DNA of 41,465 nucleotides, from IMG/VR virus record IMGVR_UViG_3300025648_000044, positions 1 to 41,465 of that record. One strand, written 5' to 3'. Below the pieces are notes generated by a model. That model was not told the DNA's origin. It worked only from the letters and a program-made list of their open reading frames with translations, and did no database searches. The translations under genes were made by a program, and so were the position numbers. Position 1 is the stretch's first letter; each line of letters opens with the position of its first letter. This stretch comes from a virus. Shown here piece after piece: positions 16,628 through 40,714 of this stretch.

Positions 16628-16842
16628 TTGACACAAATCAAATTGCGCAGGCCGCGCAGGATGTGGCCGTGGCGAAGGCCACGTTGGCCCCGTATGTGCC
16701 GGCGCTGGCGGTGGCCGCCGCGTGGGCCGGCCGCGAGATCCGCAATGTGAACCTCTATCTCGAAGCCGTGGCCGCAAAAATCATCGCGCACGGCGGCATC
16801 TGGCAGATCGTCCGCAAACTCTGGAACAACCCGGCCAAATGA
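16624..16842 (+). CDS. Small hydrophobic protein, possible holin-like
   Basis: A 72-aa protein with a moderately hydrophobic helix (ATLAPYVPALAVAAAWAGRE) and a more amphipathic second half (YLEAVAAKIIAHGGIWQIVR) ending in basic residues. Single-span small proteins with a basic tail next to a hydrolase are consistent with a holin or pinholin, but there is no family signature, and a structural or scaffold role is possible. Four-base overlaps join it to the hydrolase (16624-16627) and the methylase (16839-16842). Confidence 0.55.
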   Translation: MIDTNQIAQAAQDVAVAKATLAPYVPALAVAAAWAGREIRNVNLYLEAVAAKIIAHGGIWQIVRKLWNNPAK

Positions 16843-17615
16843 CCACGACCCGCACCAAACCAATTCTGCGCTGGCAGGGCGGCAAGAGCCGGATGCTCAA
16901 GGAAATCCTGCCGATGATTCCGGCGCATGAATGTTATTGCGAACCGTTTTTCGGCGGCGGGGCTGTCCTCTTCGCCAAGGATCGCGCCTCGACGGAAGTG
17001 ATCAACGACATCAACGGCAACCTGGTCGCGCTCTATCGCAACCTGCAATATCATCTGCCGGCGCTGCTCACGGAATTGGACTGGCTCTTTGCCAGCCGCC
17101 AGAACCTGCACGACTTCGTCCAGCAGCCGGGTATTACCGAGCTGCAACGCGCCGCGCGCTTCCTGCTGGTGAACCGCACAAGCTTCGGCGGCAACATGCA
17201 CAGCTTCGGTGTGGCCAAGTCGAAGGGCGGCGGCGTGGGCTTTGACCACGGGAAAGTTTCCAGCCTGATCGGCGAGGCCCATCAGCGGTTGAACGGCGTG
17301 GTGGTGGAAAACATCTCCTACGACCGCATGTTCAAGAATTACGATTCGAAGGACACGTTTCATTTCATCGACCCGCCGTATCAGAACGCGACGAACGGCG
17401 GCTACCAGGGCTGGGATGAAAAGCAGCTCCGTCAATTTCGCCAGGAGGTGGGCCGTTTGAAGGGCAAGTGGATTGTAACGCTTAATGACAGTCCGTTCAC
17501 GCGCGAACTCTTCAGCGGCTGCAACCTGAAACCCATCGTCACCCAAAACCGCGCCACCAACACGCGCACGCACGCCGCGCTGAAGTTCGGCGAACTCATT
17601 ATCACCCCAAAATAA
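16839..17615 (+). CDS. Dam-type DNA N6-adenine methyltransferase (D12 class)
   Basis: A 258-aa protein with the complete alpha-class motif set: RWQGGKSRML near the N-terminus (11-20), EPFFGGGAVLF (35-45, S-adenosylmethionine binding), DINGNLVALYRNL (57-69) and the catalytic DPPYQN (178-183). It transfers methyl to adenine N6, probably protecting phage DNA from host restriction or marking it for packaging or transcription control (as Dam does at mom in Mu). No cognate endonuclease is adjacent. The ATG at 16839 gives an ATGA overlap; the frame extends to 16722 only as shadow sequence. Length is typical for the family. Confidence 0.92.
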   Translation: MTTTRTKPILRWQGGKSRMLKEILPMIPAHECYCEPFFGGGAVLFAKDRASTEVINDINGNLVALYRNLQYHLPALLTELDWLFASRQNLHDFVQQPGITELQRAARFLLVNRTSFGGNMHSFGVAKSKGGGVGFDHGKVSSLIGEAHQRLNGVVVENISYDRMFKNYDSKDTFHFIDPPYQNATNGGYQGWDEKQLRQFRQEVGRLKGKWIVTLNDSPFTRELFSGCNLKPIVTQNRATNTRTHAALKFGELIITPK

Positions 17616-18266: not shown

Positions 18267-18273
18267 ATGAAAC

Positions 18274-18939
18274 ATGAGCACTTCCAAAAAATTAATCGGC
18301 ACGGCGAGCGGCAGGCCCGAAACCGCCTTGCAGCAGCTCAAGGCCGTCTGGCTGCGTATGTCCGATGCCACGCAGGAATACTGGCGGGAGCAATTCTCCT
18401 CGGCGCGCACGCAATCGGATTTGCGGGCGGAGATCGGCCGGAAACTTTCTGTGAAGCTGCCGAGCGATTCCCGGCTGTCGAAGTTCCGCGCCTGGCTGGA
18501 CGATCAGGATGCGCGGGACGAGCAGGCGGAACGGATGCAGGAAAATACGCGGCGGATTCAAGCCGAGCATCCAGAGTGGACGCTCGACCAGGTGCGCGAG
18601 GAGGTTTTGCGGCAATCCTATTTCGAGACGCTGGCCAGCGGGAATTTCAATCTCGGCTTGAAAACGGTCCGGGCGGATCAGAACGAACGGACGGGCAAGT
18701 TCAAGGCGACGCTGGAAACGGAAAAGCTGAAGCTCGCCCAGCAGGCGGAAGTCCGCGCCCAGCAGGAATTCAATCTGGCGCGGCAAAAATTCGAGTTCGA
18801 TGCGGCCAAGGCGGCGCTGGCGCAGGCGTCGAAATTGAAAACGATTTCTGCCAGCAAACTTTCGGATGTGGAGAAAATCACCCAGGCGCGCTTGGCGCTG
18901 TTTGGCGAGCTGCCGGCGGAGCCGGCGAAAACGAAATGA
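18274..18939 (+). CDS. Small terminase subunit (Mu gp27/DUF3486-like)
   Basis: A 221-aa, almost entirely helical protein. The N-terminus (LKAVWLRMSDATQEYWREQF, then SSARTQSDLRAEIGRKLSVK) could hold the DNA-binding helices, and the C-terminal two thirds is a long coiled coil (QAEVRAQQEFNLARQKFEFD). It lies immediately before the large terminase, which overlaps it by four bases (ATGA at 18936-18939). It recognises phage DNA and stimulates the ATPase/nuclease. An ATG at 18267 in another frame is not used. No Shine-Dalgarno is visible. Confidence 0.75.
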   Translation: MSTSKKLIGTASGRPETALQQLKAVWLRMSDATQEYWREQFSSARTQSDLRAEIGRKLSVKLPSDSRLSKFRAWLDDQDARDEQAERMQENTRRIQAEHPEWTLDQVREEVLRQSYFETLASGNFNLGLKTVRADQNERTGKFKATLETEKLKLAQQAEVRAQQEFNLARQKFEFDAAKAALAQASKLKTISASKLSDVEKITQARLALFGELPAEPAKTK

Positions 18940-20477
18940 CCCCACGCATCCAATCTGCCAAAACGAGCCTCGCGGTGAAAAATCCCACCGTAAAGTTTCG
19001 GGCTTATCAAAAGCCGGTGTTTGACGACCGAACCAGCGGCGTGATGCTGCTCCATTGGTCACGGCAGATCGGCAAAAGCTACACGCTCGCGGCGTGGGCG
19101 GTGGACCGCCTGCTGTCCAAGCTGCCGGAAAACAACAACTGGCTGGTCACGGTGCTCTCCAACTCGCGCGACAACGGCGCGGAGTTTGTCATCAAATGCC
19201 AGGAAGTCTGCAACAAGCTCGGCGTGGTGATGGAGCAGAGCGACGATTCTCCCGACCTGACCTATGACAACATGCGCATGGAAGTCCGTATCACCGTCAA
19301 GGTGGGCGGCAGCACCCACGTCGGCCGTATCAAGGTGCTGGCGGCCAATCCGCGCACGGCTCGCGGTTTTTCTGGCGATCTTATTCTCGATGAGTTCGCA
19401 TTTCACGAGGACTCGAATGCGATCTGGGAAGCCGCCGAGCCAATCCTGTCTAGTAATCCTGAATTCCTCTGCCGCATCGCCTCTACTGGAAACGGGAAAC
19501 ACAACATGTTCTATCGGATGTGCAGCGGAGTTGGCCCAAACGACGGAACTGTATTCACGAGCGCTGCGGGCTTCAAAGTCTGTCGCGTTACCCGTTCAGA
19601 GGCATGGAAGATGGGCGTCAAAGTATGGGACGCCAACACGCGGCACCCGATCACACCCGGCGAAGCGCGCGCCAAGGCGCTAGACAAACGCGCCTACGAC
19701 CAGAACTACGAGTGCCAGTTCAACGACGAGAACATGTGCCTGCTCACGCACGAGTTGATCCAGCAGGCCGAGCGCGAAGGCATCCCGATTGACGAGCAGA
19801 AATGGTCGCCAGTCTCCCTGGCGCGGATGTTCCGGGCAACGGGCGAATTATTCCTCGGCGGCGACATCGGCCGCAACCGCGATTTGTCCTGTCTGCCGGT
19901 CATCGAGAAGATTGGCCAGAGCAAGCGCGTCATCGCCTGGCTGCGGATGTCCGGGATGCGGCTGCCGGCGCAACAGGTGCAGTTGGATCTCGTCTGCGCC
20001 ATGCCAAAATTCCGCAAAGCGTGCATCGACATGACTGGCATCGGCCTCGGGTTGGTGGAATACGCCCAGGAGAAATGGGGCGACTACAAGGTGCAGGGCG
20101 TGAACTTCGGCACCACGGAACCGATCAGTGACCGCATCCGCGCCGAAGGCCGGAAAGCAGAGACCGCCCGCGTGACGGAAATCATGGCGACGGAGCTACT
20201 CGCGGTGTTCGAGGAAAAATCCATCACCATTGAAGTGGAGCTGGACGGCGACGCCCGCGACGATCTGCGCAAGCCGGAGAAAATCACTTCGCCCGGCGGA
20301 AGGGTGAGCATCGCGGCCACGCGAGACGAGGCCGGCCACGCCGACCATTTCTGGGGGCTGGCGCTGGCCGTGCGGGCAAGCCAGGACAATTCTGCGCCGG
20401 GGCAAATCTATGTCTTTGAAAAATCCCGCGCCGGGCGGGTCATCGCCAGCCGGCGGGATCGGAGCATCATCGGATGA
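18936..20477 (+). CDS. Large terminase subunit (Mu gp28-like)
   Basis: A 513-aa DNA-packaging motor. Walker A variant SRQIGKSYT at about 42-50; Walker B with catalytic Glu LILDEFAF at 149-155; coupling motif region ASTGNGKHN near 182-190. The C-terminal RNase-H-like nuclease shows FLGGDIGRNRD (Asp 310), ACIDMTGIGLG (Asp 365) and DHFWGLALA (Asp 470). The length is close to Mu-like large terminases, which package headfully from inserted copies including flanking host DNA. The start overlaps the small subunit; the frame is open back to 18267, but only as shadow sequence. Confidence 0.93.
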   Translation: MTPRIQSAKTSLAVKNPTVKFRAYQKPVFDDRTSGVMLLHWSRQIGKSYTLAAWAVDRLLSKLPENNNWLVTVLSNSRDNGAEFVIKCQEVCNKLGVVMEQSDDSPDLTYDNMRMEVRITVKVGGSTHVGRIKVLAANPRTARGFSGDLILDEFAFHEDSNAIWEAAEPILSSNPEFLCRIASTGNGKHNMFYRMCSGVGPNDGTVFTSAAGFKVCRVTRSEAWKMGVKVWDANTRHPITPGEARAKALDKRAYDQNYECQFNDENMCLLTHELIQQAEREGIPIDEQKWSPVSLARMFRATGELFLGGDIGRNRDLSCLPVIEKIGQSKRVIAWLRMSGMRLPAQQVQLDLVCAMPKFRKACIDMTGIGLGLVEYAQEKWGDYKVQGVNFGTTEPISDRIRAEGRKAETARVTEIMATELLAVFEEKSITIEVELDGDARDDLRKPEKITSPGGRVSIAATRDEAGHADHFWGLALAVRASQDNSAPGQIYVFEKSRAGRVIASRRDRSIIG

Positions 20478-20609
20478 AATTTAACCACCCAACCAAGGCC
20501 GCTGGCTGCCCGCAGGGCGTTTTGCCGCGCTCTCGCGTGCAGGTGGGGGGCATAAACGCCGCAGCGGGGCTGCAATGCGCTGCACCGGCCAAATTTTTTG
20601 GAGGTTACA
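20478..20609. other. Intergenic spacer with repeat-like GC-rich sequence
   Basis: A 132-base spacer in an otherwise tight block. It contains GCAGCGGGGCTGCAA (20561-20575), whose reverse complement occurs at 8960-8974 in the transposase gene. No gene is seen. It ends in the Shine-Dalgarno TTGGAGGTTACA before the portal ATG. Confidence 0.5.
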
Positions 20610-22811
20610 ATGGTTAAATCCGTCAAAAAGGGTTCACGTAAGGTGACCGCTGCCACGCCGCCCGCCAGTGCCCCGCCAGCCCCCATGTCCCTCGCTGATG
20701 CTTATGCCGCCTTCGGCACCGGCAAGACCGATGCTCAAATGGTCCGTAAGTCGAATCTCTGGCGGGACAATTATAATCCCCTGCGCGGGCTGGCCATGGG
20801 CCGGCTGGTCTCGATCATGGAGGCGGCGGAACGTGGCGCATTCGCCGAGGTGCAATTATTGCTGCGCAAGGCCGAGAAGCGCTATCCGGTGCTCAAGGGT
20901 TTTGTGGAGCGCCTCCTTTGCAGTGTCGAAGAGCTGGGTTGGGATGTGAAGGTTTTTAAAACGCTGCCGCCGGGTGCGACGCCGGCGATGGCGGAGAAAC
21001 AGCGCGCGTTTCTGAAACAGCGCTACGACCTCATCGGTAATTTAAACGAGGCCATCGGGCAGATCGCCCTGGCCGAGATTCGCGGCTACGCAATCTTGCA
21101 GAAGCACCGTTATGTTGGTGGTCCGAATGATGGGGCGATCCAGGAGCTTTACTGGCTCGAACCATGGGTTTGGTCGCGCGACGGTTATTATGGCGATTTT
21201 TATTATAACGAGATTTCCCGGTTTGGCGTCGGTCTGGGTGCCTGTGTCTCAACTTTTGGTGAGAAGAATCGGATTGGTAGCGAACAACTGCCGCGCGAGG
21301 AGTTTATTATCAGGGAAGTCGAGTCGCCCCTTTACGAGATCGCGCTCATCGCCTTCATCAACTGGCTGATGGGCCGCAAGGATTGGGCGGCCTTCGTGGA
21401 AATTTTCGGGCTGGCCAAGGGTGTGGTCATCATGCCGCCGAATATCGCGATCGGCAAGGAGGCGGATTACCAGGCGGCGGCGGAAAAGGTTTCCGATGGC
21501 GTGAGCGGCGCGTTGCCCGCCGGCAGCGACATCAAGTTTCCCACCGCCGGCGTCCGGGGCGAAGACCCGTTTGAAAAATATTGCGAGGCCAACAACCAGG
21601 ACGTGGTGATGGCGGCGACGAGCGGATTACTCTCCATGCTCACGGCTTCTGGTGGCGGCCTGAATCGCGGCCCCAACCAGGAACACCAGGACATCTGGGT
21701 GAAGATCGCGCGGATGAAGGGTAAGCGCGTGAATGAGACGATGAACAAGCAGTTCGACATTCCTGAACTTGCGGCGGCTTTCCCCAATGAACCAGTCTGC
21801 GCCTACTTCAACATCCCCACCGAGGATAACGAGGATATCGGCGAGTTGGCAGACACGGTCGTCAAATTTGAGGGGGTTAATTTGCAGACTGACGTGAAGG
21901 AAATTTCCGACCGCGCCGGGATGAAGCTCACTCGGGTAACGCCGGCGACCCCGCCGGGCGGAAATAATAAACCCGGTCTTCAGGATGAAGGCTTGGTGCG
22001 AAAAGACACACGCATCACGAATCGCGGTGTGGCGCACGCGCTGGCTGATGATTCGCAGTTCACCACGGCCGTCGCCGCCGATCTGCAACACCTGCGCGAT
22101 CGCGTCGCCGCCATCGAGTCGATTTCCGATCCGGATCTGCGCGCGAAGAAACTTCAGGCGCTGCTGGATGACTGGGACACGCTGGTCGCGGACATCACCG
22201 CCGATCCTGAATCCGCCCGCGTGCTGGAAACCATCAATGCAGAGGCATTGCTCGCCGGGCTGAAGGGCCAGCCGGTTAAGAACCGCAAGATTTTCAACGG
22301 TGGTCCCGGCAGCGGCCGTCATCCAGGTGGGGAGATACGTGAAACTCGCGTGCAAGTGCATCCCGAAGCCGCGCGCCGGCTGGGTTTAAAATCCCAAAGT
22401 GTTTTTGCGGATCATGCGGCGCTGGCTACCAAACACCCGGAACTATTCCATGATAGTCAAGAAGCCAAAGACTATGTGGATCATGTCATGGCTCATCCCA
22501 CACATATCCTGCCTGGAAATCAGGAGGATCACCGGCTGGTGGTTCGTCGGGAAGATGATAACAAAGCTGTCGCCTTGGAAATTGAACAGCACGGCGGAAA
22601 ATACCGGGTGCGGTCAGCACACACTATTTCGGAAGAACAGTTCCAGCAAAAATTAAAGACCGCCGGCCCAGACGCAATCCTGGGAGTCTCGCGTGTAAAT
22701 CCGAAAAACCGAGGCTCGGAAACACCTTCGAGGCTGCTAGGCGCATCTCACGATGCGCCTCCTGCGGTCATCCAGAGAATTCTCCAGAAAACCGATTCTG
22801 TCAACCCATGA
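20610..22811 (+). CDS. Portal protein (Mu gp29/DUF935-like) with C-terminal nuclease-like extension
   Basis: A 733-aa protein, well above the usual length of about 450-520 for DUF935 portals. Residues about 25-470 are the portal: NYNPLRGLAMGRLVSIMEAA, AFAEVQLLLRKAEKRYPVLK, the Trp/Tyr-rich WLEPWVWSRDGYYGDFYYNE, and GGLNRGPNQEHQDIWVKIAR. It forms the dodecameric DNA channel at the capsid vertex. Residues 564-574 are the linker GGPGSGRHPGG, after which about 575-733 form a separate domain (YVDHVMAHPTHILPGNQEDH, RLVVRREDDNKAVALEIEQH, GGKYRVRSAHTISEEQFQQK) that resembles phage-associated BECR-fold nuclease domains. The start has a clear GGAGG. ATGA overlap with the next gene. Confidence 0.9.
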   Translation: MVKSVKKGSRKVTAATPPASAPPAPMSLADAYAAFGTGKTDAQMVRKSNLWRDNYNPLRGLAMGRLVSIMEAAERGAFAEVQLLLRKAEKRYPVLKGFVERLLCSVEELGWDVKVFKTLPPGATPAMAEKQRAFLKQRYDLIGNLNEAIGQIALAEIRGYAILQKHRYVGGPNDGAIQELYWLEPWVWSRDGYYGDFYYNEISRFGVGLGACVSTFGEKNRIGSEQLPREEFIIREVESPLYEIALIAFINWLMGRKDWAAFVEIFGLAKGVVIMPPNIAIGKEADYQAAAEKVSDGVSGALPAGSDIKFPTAGVRGEDPFEKYCEANNQDVVMAATSGLLSMLTASGGGLNRGPNQEHQDIWVKIARMKGKRVNETMNKQFDIPELAAAFPNEPVCAYFNIPTEDNEDIGELADTVVKFEGVNLQTDVKEISDRAGMKLTRVTPATPPGGNNKPGLQDEGLVRKDTRITNRGVAHALADDSQFTTAVAADLQHLRDRVAAIESISDPDLRAKKLQALLDDWDTLVADITADPESARVLETINAEALLAGLKGQPVKNRKIFNGGPGSGRHPGGEIRETRVQVHPEAARRLGLKSQSVFADHAALATKHPELFHDSQEAKDYVDHVMAHPTHILPGNQEDHRLVVRREDDNKAVALEIEQHGGKYRVRSAHTISEEQFQQKLKTAGPDAILGVSRVNPKNRGSETPSRLLGASHDAPPAVIQRILQKTDSVNP

Positions 22812-23869
22812 AATCACACGTCGTCATTTTTAACCGGGCGCCGCTCGCCTCCCGCGATGGCTGGATTCACATCGTGCCCAAGGGCGAGCTGCCGAACGCC
22901 GAGGCCGGCATCGTGCAGGTGCTCGATGACACGGCGATGGATTCCATTCTCGCCGGCATCGCGAAAGACAAGAACCGGCTCGGTGAGCGATGGCCGGGCG
23001 TCTATGCCGGGCGCGAGCATTTTATTTACGACGAAACCAAGGACAGCGCGGCGCTGGCGTGGTTCAAGGATTTCAAAAAGGACGGCGACGGCATCTGGGC
23101 CAGGGACGACGGCCTGACGCCTGCCGGCAGCACGGCGGTGATGAACCGCGAATATAAATTCACCAGCTTTGTCTCCGATCCGAATCAGCTCCAAAAAATC
23201 GAGGGCAAGCGCTATCGCGTCACCGGCATCGAGACCATCGGCTTCACCAACCAGGCCAACGGCAAGGAACTTTTAACCCCGATCACCAACCGGGGCAGTG
23301 ATCTCGCTGACGCAAGTGCGTCGGCGGCAAACCAACAACAACAAACCAAGAACAAAATGAAAAACATCGCAACGAAACTTGGTCTCGCCGCCGAGGCAAG
23401 CGAAGACGCCGTCCTCGAGGCCCTGACCAAAATCATGAATCGCGCCACGACCGCCGAAGCGGAAGTGACGCCGCTCAAGAATCGCGTCACGACGCTTGAG
23501 ACGGAAAACCAAACGCTCCTGGGCGAGCAGGTGGACGGCATCCTGGCCGAACACAAGATCACGGACACCAAGATCATCAACCGCCTCAAGCCCGTCCTGA
23601 CCGGTTTGAAGGACCGCGCCGACCGCGTGGGCTATCTCACCGACTGCGGCTTCAAGCCCGGCGAACAGAAAGCCGGTGTCCGGATTCTGAATCGTGGTAA
23701 AGGTGACACCACCCAGCAGGCCGCCGCCAGCGACGATGAGGCCGCGCAAAAGGCCGAGCAGGCCCGCGCCACCAAGATCATGAACCGCGCCAAGCAGCTC
23801 ATGACGGAAGTCAAGCATCTGGACCTGGCCACGGCCACCCGGATGGCCAGCAACGAAATCCCCGAATAA
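22808..23869 (+). CDS. Prohead protease/scaffold (Mu gp32 I-protein-like)
   Basis: A 353-aa protein. Residues 1-150 follow the Mu I-type protease pattern: IHIVPKGELPNAEAGIVQVL, YAGREHFIYDETKDSAALAW, FKDFKKDGDGIWARDDGLTP and MNREYKFTSFV. A Gln/Ala/Ser-rich hinge (168-182) leads to a helical, scaffold-like C-terminal half. The short motif [I/V]-x-N-R recurs at 7-10, 111-114, 159-162, 209-212, 256-259, 293-296 and 324-327, usually followed by Gly or Ala; these could be self-processing or interaction sites. In Mu the same gene also yields the scaffold Z from an internal start; the ATG at 23357 (MKNIATKLGLAAEASEDAVL) after an A-rich stretch could serve that purpose here. Confidence 0.82.
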   Translation: MKSHVVIFNRAPLASRDGWIHIVPKGELPNAEAGIVQVLDDTAMDSILAGIAKDKNRLGERWPGVYAGREHFIYDETKDSAALAWFKDFKKDGDGIWARDDGLTPAGSTAVMNREYKFTSFVSDPNQLQKIEGKRYRVTGIETIGFTNQANGKELLTPITNRGSDLADASASAANQQQQTKNKMKNIATKLGLAAEASEDAVLEALTKIMNRATTAEAEVTPLKNRVTTLETENQTLLGEQVDGILAEHKITDTKIINRLKPVLTGLKDRADRVGYLTDCGFKPGEQKAGVRILNRGKGDTTQQAAASDDEAAQKAEQARATKIMNRAKQLMTEVKHLDLATATRMASNEIPE

Positions 23870-24359: not shown

Positions 24360-24404
24360 GACAATCGCTGAAACCTGAAATCAAACATCAAACACCAAAA
24401 TAAA

Positions 24405-25490
24405 ATGAAAAATAAATTAAACATTCGCGCGCTGTGCCTTGCAGCCGCGTTCACCGTCCTGCTGGCGATTTTCAGCCCGCAGACATTTATCATCGCCTCG
24501 ATTGGCATTTCGGCAGCGGCATTCGTTCTGAATCCCAAGCCTTATGCCCTCGGCGCAGAATCCCGCATTGCGCAGTTGGCCTCCAGCCCGCTGCTCACCA
24601 ACTACGCCATCACCGCCTCGCAGAACGCGATCCGGCCGGTGGGCCAGTTCATCGCCCCGCTCTGTTCGGTGCCGGGCCTCACGTTCCGTTACAAGAAATA
24701 CACGGACAAAAACCGCTACAAGGTGGCGGACACCCGCCGCAACGTCTCCGGCAAGGTCACGCGCATCGGCTTCACCGCCGACGACGTCGCGGCCATCCTG
24801 GAACCCAACGCCCTGGACTTCCCCATCCCGAACGTCGAAGGTTTGACGAACGAGGAACTGGGCTTTGCCATCCAGGAAGGCCAGAGCATCCTCGCGGATT
24901 CCTCCGCGCTGTCGCTTGAAAACGAGATCGTCACCACCGCCAAGGCGGCGGCGATCATCGCCCCCGGTTCCGCGAAGGTGGATTTCACCGACGACACGGT
25001 GGACCCGATCAGCATCCTCGACGACGCCATCCTCACGGTGATGAAAGCCGCGAAGAACGGCGCGCCGGTGAAAATCCTGTTCGGCACCACGAAGTTCAAA
25101 CAGTTCCGCAACAACAAGAACGTCAAGAGCCGCTTCATCGTCGGCAAGGGCGCTCCGGTCGGGGTGGTTTCGCCGGGCATCGAGGACGTGGGCAGCCTGC
25201 TCATGACCGCTCCGGAAGTGCAGTTGAGCATGATGGTGATCGACACGGCCGCCGCCGGCGTCGCGGAGAACATCCAGTTCCTGCTCGACGACGTGGTCAT
25301 CCTGTTTGCCAGCAATGGCACGCCGAACCGCATGGACCCGTCCTTCATGAAGACGTTTGCCCCTGTGGGCGGCTTCTTCAAGCCGGGCAGCTTCACCACG
25401 GAAGACCAGCGCGACCAGGTCCTGAAGATGGACTGGCTCACGTTACCCTCCGTCACCAACAGCTCCGCCGTTGTGGCGATCAAGAGCTAA
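24405..25490 (+). CDS. Major capsid protein with hydrophobic signal-like N-terminus
   Basis: A 361-aa protein. From about residue 55 it follows the HK97-type capsid of Mu/B3-like phages: PLCSVPGLTFRYKKYTDKNR, RNVSGKVTRIGFTADDVAAI, LEPNALDFPIPN, VTTAKAAAIIAPGSAK, APVKILFGTTKFKQFRNNKN. Residues 1-48 are unusual: KNKLNIRALCLAAAFTVLLA then FSPQTFIIASIGISAAAFVL, two hydrophobic segments preceded by basic residues, like a signal peptide or a membrane hairpin. The A-rich leader (CACCAAAATAAA) directly before the ATG is the same as in other late genes, so the N-terminal extension appears genuine. A strong hairpin follows the gene. Confidence 0.85.
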   Translation: MKNKLNIRALCLAAAFTVLLAIFSPQTFIIASIGISAAAFVLNPKPYALGAESRIAQLASSPLLTNYAITASQNAIRPVGQFIAPLCSVPGLTFRYKKYTDKNRYKVADTRRNVSGKVTRIGFTADDVAAILEPNALDFPIPNVEGLTNEELGFAIQEGQSILADSSALSLENEIVTTAKAAAIIAPGSAKVDFTDDTVDPISILDDAILTVMKAAKNGAPVKILFGTTKFKQFRNNKNVKSRFIVGKGAPVGVVSPGIEDVGSLLMTAPEVQLSMMVIDTAAAGVAENIQFLLDDVVILFASNGTPNRMDPSFMKTFAPVGGFFKPGSFTTEDQRDQVLKMDWLTLPSVTNSSAVVAIKS

Positions 25491-25526: not shown

Positions 25527-25558
25527 TTAACCAAATTAAAAATCAATCGAATAAAAAT

Positions 25559-26008
25559 ATGAAATTCTCGAACTTGAAAAAAAGCGGGTTCACCCCGGTG
25601 CAAATCATGGTGTTGATCGCCATTATCGGCCTGCTGGCTATCTGCGCGATCCCGGCGCAGGCGGATCAGCAGGGTTATCCCAGCACCACCGGCACGGTCA
25701 CCAACCTGCCGGCGGCCGTTGGCACCAATTATTGGTCCGGTGCGACGAATTACATCCCGCTGCGCAATTACAGCGGCCTGTCCCTGCAGGCCAGTAATGG
25801 GGCGGCGGCCTCGCTGACGGTGTATCCGTCCATTGACGGCGCGAACGCGCTGCCGTGGTCGCTCGGCACCATCAGCGGTACCGGCGTCATCGGCACGAAC
25901 TGGAACGTGAATCAGCTTCGCGGATTCCAAGGTGTGTTTGTCAGTTACACCAACACCGCCGGCGCGTCCAACACGATCAGCACGTATTGGCTGCGACCAA
26001 ATCAATAA
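25559..26008 (+). CDS. Secreted protein with pilin-like N-terminus
   Basis: A 149-aa protein starting MKFSNLKKSGFTPVQIMVLI. KKSGFTPVQ followed by the hydrophobic MVLIAIIGLLAICAI resembles the type IV prepilin/pseudopilin site (G before FTxxE), with Gln where Glu5 is expected. The rest is beta-rich, Asn/Thr/Gly-rich (TNYIPLRNYSGLSLQASNGA, SLTVYPSIDGANALPW), possibly a small jelly-roll. Its position directly after the capsid gene would suit a head fibre or decoration protein; the signal is then hard to explain unless the phage uses the membrane in assembly. The frame is open to 25502, but the A-rich leader (AATAAAAAT) marks the start. Confidence 0.65.
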   Translation: MKFSNLKKSGFTPVQIMVLIAIIGLLAICAIPAQADQQGYPSTTGTVTNLPAAVGTNYWSGATNYIPLRNYSGLSLQASNGAAASLTVYPSIDGANALPWSLGTISGTGVIGTNWNVNQLRGFQGVFVSYTNTAGASNTISTYWLRPNQ

Positions 26009-26081
26009 CCCATCGCCGGCGGCGGTGTGGCGTTGAAAGCGCGCACCGCGAACGCATCGCCGCCGGCAACTCCTTTTGAAA
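26009..26081. other. Short spacer with inverted repeat
   Basis: GCCGGCGGCG near the left edge pairs with CGCCGCCGGC near the right edge (10 bp) around a loop of roughly 35 bases. It may limit read-through or fold the mRNA between the secreted-protein gene and the anti-CBASS-like gene. Confidence 0.4.
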
Positions 26082-26294
26082 ATGAATCCAGCCATCGAAC
26101 ATAATTTCAAATATCACCCGCCGGTCGGCAACGCGGCTGATAAGCACGCGGCCGTCCGCGCCAAAGCCAAGGAGCTGGCCTTGCTGATAGATGAATCTTT
26201 GCCGCCGAATGCGGGCCGTGAAAAAGCCACGGCGATCACCAAGTGTGAAGAGGCCATGATGTGGGCCTGCGCCGGCATCGCCCGCCACAGTTAA
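26082..26294 (+). CDS. Acb2/Tad1-hairpin family protein, putative anti-CBASS cyclic-nucleotide sponge
   Basis: A 70-aa all-helical protein: HNFKYHPPVGNAADKHAAVR, AKAKELALLIDESLPPNAGR, EKATAITKCEEAMMWACAGI, ending ARHS. The pattern [E/N]xxFxYHPP ... RxKAKELALLIDExxPxxxxREKxxAxTKxEEAMMWAxAxIAR is that of the Acb2-type hairpin family found in many tailed phages, whose characterised members bind and sequester cyclic di- and trinucleotides made by host CBASS enzymes, blocking abortive infection. The nucleotide-contacting Tyr and Lys appear in YHPP and KAKEL. The ATG at 26082 follows TTTTGAAA; a TTG at 26076 is in frame. It lies in the middle of the late operon, unlike most anti-defence genes, which are early. 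Confidence 0.85.
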   Translation: MNPAIEHNFKYHPPVGNAADKHAAVRAKAKELALLIDESLPPNAGREKATAITKCEEAMMWACAGIARHS

Positions 26295-26304
26295 TCCATT
26301 TCAA

Positions 26305-26433
26305 ATGAACCGTCTTAAAAGAATGCTGCGGTTGATCTGGTTCGGCGAAGCTGAATCCCGGCCGCGCTCGCTTTATGGACGGAAGGAAGCCCGCCGGCTC
26401 TCCTGGCGGCATCGCAGTTTTATCAATTTTTAA
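26305..26433 (+). CDS. Hypothetical small basic protein (42 aa)
   Basis: A 42-aa frame (MNRLKRMLRLIWFGEAESRP, ending WRHRSFINF), very Arg-rich, filling the gap between the anti-CBASS-like gene and the connector gene; its TAA is two bases from the next ATG (TAATTATG). The leader TTTCAA is A/T-rich. No family is recognised. It could be a small nucleic-acid-binding or head-completion peptide. Confidence 0.45.
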   Translation: MNRLKRMLRLIWFGEAESRPRSLYGRKEARRLSWRHRSFINF

Positions 26434-26435
26434 TT

Positions 26436-26885
26436 ATGGCTAACTGGGTTTCCATCTCCATTAACACGCTTTACGGTGCGAAAGTCGCCGCGTTGATTGA
26501 TGCCGCGGATGCGCGGGCGCTGAAGGCGGGCCAACCCAACCGTTCCGCTGGCATCATTTCCGATGTGGTGAATGAAATCCGCCGCAAGATTGCGAGTCAT
26601 CAGCGCAACCAACTGGACGTGGATGTGACCAAGATTCCGCAGGGGTTAAATGCCTTGGCGACGGACATGATCATCGCGCGGTTAAAAACCGCCATTGAGC
26701 AAGAGTTGAGTGAAGATGAACGCCGTAATTTAACCCGGCACACCGTAAATCTGGATCGCATCGCCGAGGGCAAAGATGTAGTGGACGCGCCGGATAATCC
26801 GATTGTCGCTCCGATGGAACCGCTCGTGCCTCCGCCGAGCTTCGGCCCCAAACCGCATCGTCGCGTCAATGAACTGAACGGATGA
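26436..26885 (+). CDS. Head-tail connector protein (Mu gp36/DUF1320-like)
   Basis: A 149-aa protein in the position of Mu gp36. Helices (LYGAKVAALIDAADARALKA, IISDVVNEIRRKIASHQRNQ), IPQGLNALATDMIIARLKTA and the end RHTVNLDRIAEGKDVVDAPD follow the gp36/DUF1320 scheme of helices ending in a helix plus G-rich tail. It probably forms the connector ring under the portal. ATGA overlap with the next gene (26882-26885). Confidence 0.68.
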   Translation: MANWVSISINTLYGAKVAALIDAADARALKAGQPNRSAGIISDVVNEIRRKIASHQRNQLDVDVTKIPQGLNALATDMIIARLKTAIEQELSEDERRNLTRHTVNLDRIAEGKDVVDAPDNPIVAPMEPLVPPPSFGPKPHRRVNELNG

Positions 26886-29667: not shown

Positions 29668-30861
29668 ATGAAAAAATACTTCCTGACCCTTGGTTTGATT
29701 TTATCGCTGTGTTCGCTCACGGCGTTCGCGGCCAATTTCAGCCTGACCAACAACACGGTTTATCCCGTGTATGCCGCGCTGTATGCCACCAACAGCGCCG
29801 GCCAGGCGGTGTTTTCTCCCCGCAACCTGGTGGGCACCAATTCCGTTTCCGTGCTGACCAATTCCGCGCCGGTCGGTGTGGCCGTGGTCGGCACCAATGC
29901 CGGCAACACGCTGGCGCGGCTCACGCTGTTGACGGCCTTGCCGGCGACGGGCGCAAAGCTGTCGGTTGTGCTCTCGAATTACTCCGCCTGGGCAACTTGG
30001 CCGATCAGCAGCGCCAACAGCCTGGTGTTAAGTTCCAATTCTTCCGGCGGCAATACGAATGTCCCGGTCATCAGCACAAATGCTCCCGGCGGCAGCACTA
30101 ATTCGCCGGTCATCAACACCAATGCTTACAACGGCAACACAAACGCACCGGTCATCGGCACCAATACTTATCACGGCGGCACAAATTCAGCTCCGGTGTT
30201 TATTCCGTTGCCGGTTTCGATTTTTGCCGGGACCAACGCCAACCCGAATGGATTGCTGATCTCCGGATTTGGTTCGCTTTACAACCAGTTCGACGCCGCG
30301 ACTGGCACCAACTATGTCCAGCAATGGGTGAAGCGCACGCGCAGCTCGAGTTCTGGTTGGGTGGTTATTGCCGGCGGGGGTGGCATCACGTCGGTTGTTG
30401 GTGATATCACTAACGGAGTCAGCGGCTCGACGCTCATCCTCAATACAAACTTTCTCGCGGATGCGCCCGGCGACGGCAATCAATACGCCCGCCAGAATGG
30501 AGCATGGAACGTGGTAACCAACTATGTGGACGCGCCGAGTGATGGTTTAATTTATGCGCGCTCGAATGCTATGTGGGTGGCAATCACACAGCCGCCATCA
30601 GTTGTCATATCCATTGATAGTAGTGGAACTATGACGTGGGTTGCCTCTGGTGTTACTGCAACTCAATTCAACGTGTATGAAACCTACGATCAGGATGTAA
30701 ACAACATGGGTTCTTGGTCGCTGGTTGGAACCGGTAACTTTTCCGATGGTTCATATGGTGGACTTCAAACAAATGGCCGCTGGTATATCCTGACACCGAT
30801 TGACGGCTCCAGTAATCCAATCCAGCCATTTAGCAATCAATTCTACTCCTTTGTCCTTTAA
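29668..30861 (+). CDS. Secreted Asn/Thr-rich repeat protein, candidate tail fibre or surface protein
   Basis: A 397-aa protein starting MKKYFLTLGLILSLCSLTAF with a clear Sec signal ending AFA-ANFS. The N-terminal mature part (about 20-125) is beta-rich. Residues 127-178 form an imperfect 14-residue repeat (GGNTNVPVISTNAP, GGSTNSPVINTNAY, NGNTNAPVIGTNTY, then a partial copy). The C-terminal region contains WVVIAGGGGITSVVGDITNG and DGNQYARQNGAWNVVTNYVD, the latter like the GxYARxNxxWxxV segments common in tail-fibre proteins, and a final fibronectin-like part. It sits between tube and chaperone genes. A signal peptide on a virion fibre is unusual; alternatively it is secreted by the lysogen. 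Confidence 0.68.
   Translation: MKKYFLTLGLILSLCSLTAFAANFSLTNNTVYPVYAALYATNSAGQAVFSPRNLVGTNSVSVLTNSAPVGVAVVGTNAGNTLARLTLLTALPATGAKLSVVLSNYSAWATWPISSANSLVLSSNSSGGNTNVPVISTNAPGGSTNSPVINTNAYNGNTNAPVIGTNTYHGGTNSAPVFIPLPVSIFAGTNANPNGLLISGFGSLYNQFDAATGTNYVQQWVKRTRSSSSGWVVIAGGGGITSVVGDITNGVSGSTLILNTNFLADAPGDGNQYARQNGAWNVVTNYVDAPSDGLIYARSNAMWVAITQPPSVVISIDSSGTMTWVASGVTATQFNVYETYDQDVNNMGSWSLVGTGNFSDGSYGGLQTNGRWYILTPIDGSSNPIQPFSNQFYSFVL
30046..30199 (+). repeat. In-frame tandem repeat, 42-base unit
   Basis: Three and a partial fourth copy of a 42-base unit start at 30046, 30088, 30130 and 30172, encoding G-G/N-x-T-N-x-P-V-I-x-T-N-x-x. The copies have diverged at third positions and some residues. Confidence 0.75.
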
Positions 30862-30897: not shown

Positions 30898-31389
30898 ATG
30901 AAAAAACCACTTCTCTTCATCGGCCTCGCGCTTGTCGCGGGGATCACCTCGGCCCAGATATTGCAACCTGTTTTCACCCAGCGGCAGATTAATATCACTG
31001 TCACCAACGCGGTGACGGCCGCCGTCAGCGCGGCGCAGTTCGACGGTATTGTTGCGCTCGCTCAAGCGTCCGGCATTGGCGCGGCCGCGCCCATCCGTTC
31101 GACCAACACGGCTTCGTTCAGCGTCAGTCCTTATGATTCCGTGAACCAGGTCTATCATATCGCTGTCCGCGCCATCGCGCCGGTGAGTCCTGGCACGACG
31201 TTTGTGCCAACCGAGCAGCAGTTCTGCATGACGCCGGCGACCCTGCAAAGTTTTTGCAGCCAGTTGGGCACCGGCACGAATGCTATTGTGTCGCCCATCG
31301 TCATCGGCACGAACAACTTCAACGGCTGTTTCGGATTCAACACCAACCGCACCGAGAACAGTTTCTCGGTCCGCATTCAACTGAAATAA
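30898..31389 (+). CDS. Secreted protein of unknown function in the tail region
   Basis: A 163-aa protein starting MKKPLLFIGLALVAGITSAQ with a Sec signal peptide (cleavage near TSAQ). The mature part has helix/strand alternation (INITVTNAVTAAVSAAQFDG) and strands with three to four Cys (QFCMTPATLQSFC, NGCFGF) that could form disulfides, in line with secretion. The A/T-rich leader AAATACAAATT precedes the ATG. No family is recognised. Confidence 0.6.
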   Translation: MKKPLLFIGLALVAGITSAQILQPVFTQRQINITVTNAVTAAVSAAQFDGIVALAQASGIGAAAPIRSTNTASFSVSPYDSVNQVYHIAVRAIAPVSPGTTFVPTEQQFCMTPATLQSFCSQLGTGTNAIVSPIVIGTNNFNGCFGFNTNRTENSFSVRIQLK

Positions 31390-40066: not shown

Positions 40067-40714
40067 ATGAAAATAAAACTCATCATCGCCTCATTGGCTT
40101 TGGCTTCAATTGCCTTGGCTTACATGCCGCCGGCTGGGTCATTTACATTGACTGACGCCTTTTTGACGCCGGGTGATTCAGTGACCTTTTATGGCAACGG
40201 CGCAGACAACTACACCGGCACAAACACTGGATATTTCACCCTCAATTTAGACGCGAATTATTTTTACTATGCCCCTGCTACGACTGGTAACAGCAATGCC
40301 TGGCAGTTTGTAGGCTCGCTGGTATGGGATGGCACGAATGTTTTTGGCTCCCTCCAATACACCACGGCCGACACGAATACCCCTAGTGACTACCAGTCAT
40401 TCACGCTCACAAACTTTGTGGTTGGAACAAACCTTTTCACGATCCACGTGCTTAATACAAATCTTTTCGCCGTGACTGGGTTTTCAGCGGTGCTCTCCAA
40501 TCAACCGACGAACACTATTGTTGGTGTGGCTCCCCATTTCGTGCCAGCACCGCCTATTTTATCGTTGGTATTCTTGACCAATGCACCGACCGTGGATCAA
40601 ATCGGCGGTGTTAATATCGTGAAGCTTTGGTTTAGCAATGACACCGCCGGCTGGCTTACCTACTACGATTCCGGTACCAACGCCCATTCAACGAACGTCT
40701 TCAGTCCGTTTTGA
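40067..40714 (+). CDS. Secreted Asn/Thr-rich protein at the end of the late operon
   Basis: A 215-aa protein starting MKIKLIIASLALASIALAYM with a Sec signal peptide. The mature chain is beta-rich and full of TN pairs (NYTGTNTGYFTLNLDANYFY, VVGTNLFTIHVLNTNLFAVT), resembling PEP-CTERM-like secreted proteins of Verrucomicrobia in composition but lacking the sorting tail. It follows the hub gene by one base and so may be the distal fibre or a lysogen surface protein. No family is recognised. Confidence 0.6.
   Translation: MKIKLIIASLALASIALAYMPPAGSFTLTDAFLTPGDSVTFYGNGADNYTGTNTGYFTLNLDANYFYYAPATTGNSNAWQFVGSLVWDGTNVFGSLQYTTADTNTPSDYQSFTLTNFVVGTNLFTIHVLNTNLFAVTGFSAVLSNQPTNTIVGVAPHFVPAPPILSLVFLTNAPTVDQIGGVNIVKLWFSNDTAGWLTYYDSGTNAHSTNVFSPF

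Follow-up and report, generated by a model that had tools for sequence, protein, structure and literature searches.

A short Acb2-type gene, apparently mobile, among the head genes of a Mu-like phage

The gene that is the subject of this account, acb2, lies in the rightward late block of a phage genome represented by the window (the whole 41,465-nt stretch of DNA analysed here). The order in this part of the block is: major capsid gene, pilin-like ORF, RNA stem-loop, acb2, adaptor-like gene (Table 1). Judged by its gene content the phage is Mu-like; beyond the entries in the table, a MuB-like ATPase (its AAA domain scores above the cut-off, its MuB C-terminal domain slightly below) and a Gam-like protein are encoded on the minus strand. 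A sequence-only reading had put acb2 "just after" the capsid gene of the late head operon. The late head block stands, but the adjacency does not: the pilin-like ORF intervenes, making acb2 the second ORF after the capsid gene. Homologues of that intervening ORF are found at the same place in three related contigs (L063, L004 and L005), and the adaptor-like gene likewise keeps its place in relatives. No σ70-like promoter was seen wholly upstream of the acb2 start (the σ70 consensus may not be the host's); with no evident promoter to itself, acb2 is probably co-transcribed with the head genes.

Table 1. Features of the rightward block of the window
Feature	Coordinates	Strand	Support
D12-class adenine DNA methyltransferase	16722..17615		PF02086 E 3.4e-26
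Terminase large subunit	18267..20477	+	phrog_2 E 1.7e-28
Mu-type portal protein	20598..22811	+	PF06074 E 4.3e-23
Mu-like (Mu I-type) head maturation protease	22808..23869	+	PF10123 E 3.8e-11
Major capsid protein, hydrophobic N-terminal extension	24405..25490	+	phrog_1005 major head protein E 1.9e-15
Capsid N-terminal extension, about 50 aa	24405..24530
149-aa ORF, prepilin/signal-peptide-like N-terminus	25559..26008	+	weak N-terminal PHROG pilin-like matches
RNA stem-loop, 15 bp, strong	26015..26073	+	fold -37 kcal/mol, z -2.8 to -3.5
acb2-type gene, Acb2/Tad1 hairpin protein, 70 aa	26082..26294	+	PF24729, phrog_1454, AlphaFold2 monomer
Possible 42-aa basic ORF	26305..26433
149-aa head-tail-adaptor-like gene	26436..26885	+	sub-threshold Phage_Mu_Gp36 E 0.024, phrog_132 adaptor E 0.083

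Several features of this block merit a comment in their own right. The hydrophobic extension of the capsid protein (MKNKLNIRALCLAAAFTVLLAIFSPQTFIIASIGISAAAF...) is odd for a capsid; it is missing in the nearest capsid relatives (L063-L067), while the more distant L069 begins with a hydrophobic signal-like stretch. Signal-peptide-like starts recur among the late-operon proteins: in the pilin-like ORF and in those at 29668-30861, 30898-31389 and 40067-40714. In the pilin-like protein a prepilin-like motif, GFTPVQ, comes just before AQA-DQ; among the homologues of this protein the start is plain signal-like in L063 and prepilin-like in L005. The pilin-like gene and that of the capsid have A-rich leaders (25541-25559 and 24393-24405, respectively) with no clear Shine-Dalgarno sequence, possibly a hint as to the host group. 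The stem-loop behind the pilin-like gene may be a terminator, an attenuator or an mRNA-stability element. The possible basic ORF lies between acb2 and the adaptor-like gene, and the methyltransferase, whose gene opens the rightward block, is possibly a second anti-defence (anti-restriction) gene.

Is so short a reading frame a gene? The acb2 ORF has no internal stop and translates as MNPAIEHNFKYHPPVGNAADKHAAVRAKAKELALLIDESLPPNAGREKATAITKCEEAMMWACAGIARHS. Compared with the copies in the four nearest phage contigs (L002-L005), it is 80-86% identical in nucleotide and 87-96% identical in protein sequence, and dN/dS is about 0.04-0.15 (dN about 0.06-0.11, dS about 0.5-1.6): it is a functional protein-coding gene under purifying selection. 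The FxYHPP ... KAKELALLID ... TK.EEAMMWA pattern, from which the sequence-only reading had assigned the product to the Acb2 hairpin family, is present as claimed, and profile searches bear the assignment out. The match to Pfam PF24729 (Acb2/Tad1, hairpin domain; E 6.7e-21) scores 74.7 bits, where the curated cut-off is 27 bits, and extends over the full profile (positions 1-58 of 58); phrog_1454 agrees (E 1.7e-22), and these two values place the match far beyond chance. Searches of NCBIfam and PADLOC with the protein gave no match. Relatives are plentiful: 280 phage records match by tblastn (E <= 0.01) and a profile-guided scan of IMG/VR locates at least 396 places, while a scan of bacterial genomes yields two matches, both in actinobacterial prophage. 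The gene is, then, a well-supported addition to a known anti-defence family, ordinary rather than surprising.

Acb2 protomers consist of a short helix and a helical hairpin (PMC12043709, PMC10419184). The AlphaFold2 monomer of the window protein (mean pLDDT 86.5) has a helix at residues 3-8, a helical hairpin at 19-39/45-69 and no strand, which is the architecture of a stand-alone Acb2: a short N-terminal helix and two long antiparallel helices, with no β-sheet. Identification of the protein as a Tad1 was considered and rejected: its 70 residues are all helical and only the hairpin segment aligns, while Tad1, with 120-140 aa, has an N-terminal β-sheet domain that the window protein lacks. What the two share is a C-terminal hairpin segment resembling SRENACALTHVEEALMW. 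Fold comparison adds little, since unrelated helical hairpins reach similar scores: Foldseek found nothing significant with the monomer, and VIA-align gave middling values, Z 6.2 for T4 Vs.4, one of the chains it aligned best, and Z 5.2 for Tad1, with Acb2 homolog 43 absent among the chains that it listed.

The single sequence finds nothing significant in the PDB (9ptq appears at E 1.2 only), which called for a profile. One built from the window protein and seven relatives, without any studied Acb2 (profile A2), reaches Acb2 homolog 43 (PDB 9ptq) at E 3.9e-9, the Tad1 hairpin at E 7e-4 and T4 Vs.4 at E 0.43. (A technical note: a second profile, A1, contains the T4 and JBD67 sequences and is therefore circular for T4 Vs.4 and partly so for the PaMx entries; A2 was used for that reason.) At the level of single residues, Tyr11 of the window protein aligns with T4 Tyr8 and Thr53 with T4 Thr68; in T4, Y8A abolishes cyclic dinucleotide (CDN) binding (PMC12657218, PMC12657230) and T68M reduces affinity (PMC12657230). 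Within the subgroup to which the window protein belongs, Thr53 and Arg26 are invariant and position 11 is either Tyr or Phe. Arg26 occupies the position of Lys26 in PaMx41, which we take to be a residue of the CDN pocket in the PaMx proteins. The position of the nucleotide-stacking Phe82 of T4 is Ala67 in the window protein, and is Ala in PaMx41 as well.

How does the protein compare with its better-known relatives? T4 Vs.4 (Acb2, PDB 7uq2) is a PF24729 member (E 7.1e-20) whose Tyr8, Thr68 and MWAC stretch align with the window protein; it differs in its length (88 aa), in having a hairpin insert and Phe82, and in being encoded in the vs region rather than in a head module, and identity is 28%. 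The Acb2 proteins of PaMx41 and PaMx33 (PDB 8h2j, 8ixz) are also PF24729 members (58.7 bits, above the cut-off, for the PaMx41 place) and share the placement of Tyr11 and the Ala at the T4 Phe82 position; they differ in a longer hairpin insert and in Lys26 against the Arg26 of the window protein. The PaMx41 copy, unlike acb2 of the window, is interrupted: its frame (L073, KU884563, 24069-24308) contains one in-frame TAG, with which the published short gp24 and the X37Q read-through escaper are consistent (PMC10419184). Acb2 homolog 43 is the closest solved sequence; it is of the short hairpin type and has the P.gREK....TKlEEAm motif, but its FxYHPP N-terminal stretch is not complete. By sequence comparison, the short subgroup defined by FxYHPP and Arg26 lies far from those Acb2 proteins of T4 and PaMx phages that have been studied; this distance, and the Arg in place of Lys26, speak against reading the window protein as an Acb2-type sponge.

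The location of acb2 among late head genes had been offered as a departure from known cases. It is not one: the location is correct but already known from Pseudomonas phage JBD67, whose acb2 occupies the same interval and has been tested genetically. JBD67 is likewise Mu-like, with a leftward early and a rightward late block, and its gene order runs from the major head protein (gp32) through gp33 (64 aa) and gp34 to the head-tail adaptor (gp35). Gp34 (NC_042135) matches PF24729 at E 3.4e-16, the sole such place in the JBD67 genome. The gene count is thus the same as in the window: capsid gene and one small ORF precede, and the head-tail adaptor is directly next. Deletion of JBD67 acb2 is a published anti-CBASS experiment (Huiting 2023, cited in PMC13083879). 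The JBD67 protein itself differs from that of the window: it is 108 aa long, a long insert separates its two hairpin helices, the equivalent of position 26 is Lys in place of Arg, and identity is 26%. Among the best IMG/VR relatives, the neighbouring PHROGs that recur (upstream and downstream tallies, counted by family and not per locus) are portal, minor head/head morphogenesis, head maturation protease and small terminase, along with regulators and endolysins. The family also has members outside head modules: T4 vs.4, a gene in Paenibacillus phage Pahemo, at the genome's right end, and genes 101 and 102 of mycobacteriophage (PMC11953737).

Although its neighbours are head genes, acb2 does not travel with them. 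Of 41 loci whose terminase is related (several of these loci are fragments) and 7 whose capsid is related (two records belong to both sets), none contains PF24729; they include relatives whose capsid is 69-76% and whose portal is 75-79% identical. The most telling is L063 (capsid 76%, portal 79% identical), in which the pilin-like and adaptor-like genes stand 45 bp apart, an empty site; a scan of the entire record for PF24729 gave no match. Presence in one and absence from another of two close relatives, between adjacent core genes, is the mark of an accessory gene, and it is what the window and L063 display. Conversely, the contigs that do carry close copies have them elsewhere: at the portal/minor head junction in L002, at the junction of the adaptor-like gene with a homologue of the window gene g26882 in L003 and L004, and between the g26882 homologue and the next head gene in L005. 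Where comparison is possible, the head proteins that flank these copies are mostly 24-60% alike (L004 against the window: portal and adaptor 59-60%, capsid 25%; L005: 24-42%).

The junctions are precise. Nucleotide homology ends with the ORF in all three blastn comparisons: L005 6001-6207 corresponds to window 26082-26288, L004 6001-6209 to window 26082-26290, and L002 5999-6200 to window 26080-26281. The 70 bp that lie upstream of acb2 in the window stand before the adaptor-like gene in L004 (5447-5516, 85.7% identical), with the stem-loop retained (L004 5447-5505, matching window 26015-26073); since this element precedes the adaptor-like gene there, acb2 has apparently been inserted or lost just behind it. 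Insertion of short accessory genes, anti-CRISPR genes included, into Mu-like phages has been described, under the name of regions of genomic plasticity (PMC4378225). In these comparisons, acb2 behaves as a mobile accessory gene. The present analysis contributes evidence that the gene moves with gene-level precision among four head-module junctions, and that there is a distinct short Arg26 subgroup.

What, then, does the gene do? Its most likely function is that of a cyclic-oligonucleotide sponge acting late in infection; sequestration is the best-supported function because of the hairpin monomer and the correspondence of Tyr11 and Thr53 with T4 residues. We put the probability at about 80% that acb2 of the window encodes a short stand-alone Acb2-type sponge, predicted to be an oligomer that sequesters host-made cyclic di- or trinucleotides late in infection, and that it is single-gene cargo. 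The phage would have acquired acb2 as such cargo moving between head-module junctions; the 70-aa protein would be made together with the head proteins and would form a small oligomer (the Acb2 proteins studied so far are hexamers), which would bind cyclic di- and/or trinucleotides that the host makes in a signalling defence, CBASS for instance, and so starve the defence effector of its activator. For this protein the hexamer, the ligand and the action against CBASS are inferred.

Other signals might be the ones soaked up. Membership in PF24729 alone leaves the ligand unfixed, because the Tad1 hairpin also belongs to the family, and Tad1 binds gcADPR as well as cyclic trinucleotides (PMC12043709). 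A sponge for a nucleotide signal outside CBASS (Thoeris gcADPR, type III CRISPR cA3 or a Panoptes-like decoy nucleotide) is accordingly a possibility of some weight, if not the probable one: window acb2 and Tad1 have the C-terminal motif REKA.AiT..EEAmMW in common, and four of the five PF24729-positive bacterial genomes gave no SMODS cyclase match, a small sample in which one cyclase family was searched. Against it, the N-terminal β-sheet of Tad1 forms part of its gcADPR pocket; the all-helical window protein lacks this sheet, and retains the two CDN-pocket residues, Tyr and Thr. In a single actinobacterial order (200 genomes), one of the four PF24729 carriers has SMODS, against 20 of 200 genomes overall, but the carriers are few. 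Within the limits of such small numbers and a single cyclase family, a PF24729 match seems to say little about whether the genome that carries it has CBASS.

The position among head genes invites two further explanations. That acb2 encodes a minor head or virion-associated protein with a borrowed hairpin fold, its late position reflecting a structural job, would fit its location in the window and L002-L005, but is very improbable: acb2 tracks no capsid or portal, being absent where these are 69-76% and 75-79% identical and present at four junctions with unrelated-looking partners, and T4 and Pahemo carry family members away from any head module. The virion-linked role once suggested for it finds no support: close relatives with a capsid 76% identical do without acb2. 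That the late position is selected, co-expression with the capsid timing the sponge to capsid-linked triggering of CBASS, is likelier, though still short of probable. Phages deleted for acb2 are reported to escape CBASS through mutations in the major capsid gene (PMC10419184), the tested JBD67 gene shares the interval of window acb2, and the subfamily repeatedly adjoins head or packaging genes. Yet wild-type capsid alone is reported not to trigger CBASS toxicity (PMC10419184), other phages have acb2 in non-structural regions, and Mu-like genomes take up other accessory genes, in the head region too (PMC4378225), so that position may reflect tolerance of insertion.

A bolder extension, which we consider doubtful, would make the FxYHPP/Arg26 subgroup a branch with a function apart and a ligand preference peculiar to it, residing preferentially in packaging/head operons and timed to capsid-linked CBASS triggering: a single gene hopping from one head-module junction to another in phages with little else in common around it.

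As it stands, acb2 of the window is a solid annotation rather than a surprise. It extends the Acb2 anti-defence family to the head-module niche in uncultured Mu-like phages, and its spread among several head-gene junctions is precise to the gene. Should the late position prove to be selected, it would provide a handle on what triggers CBASS, and when.
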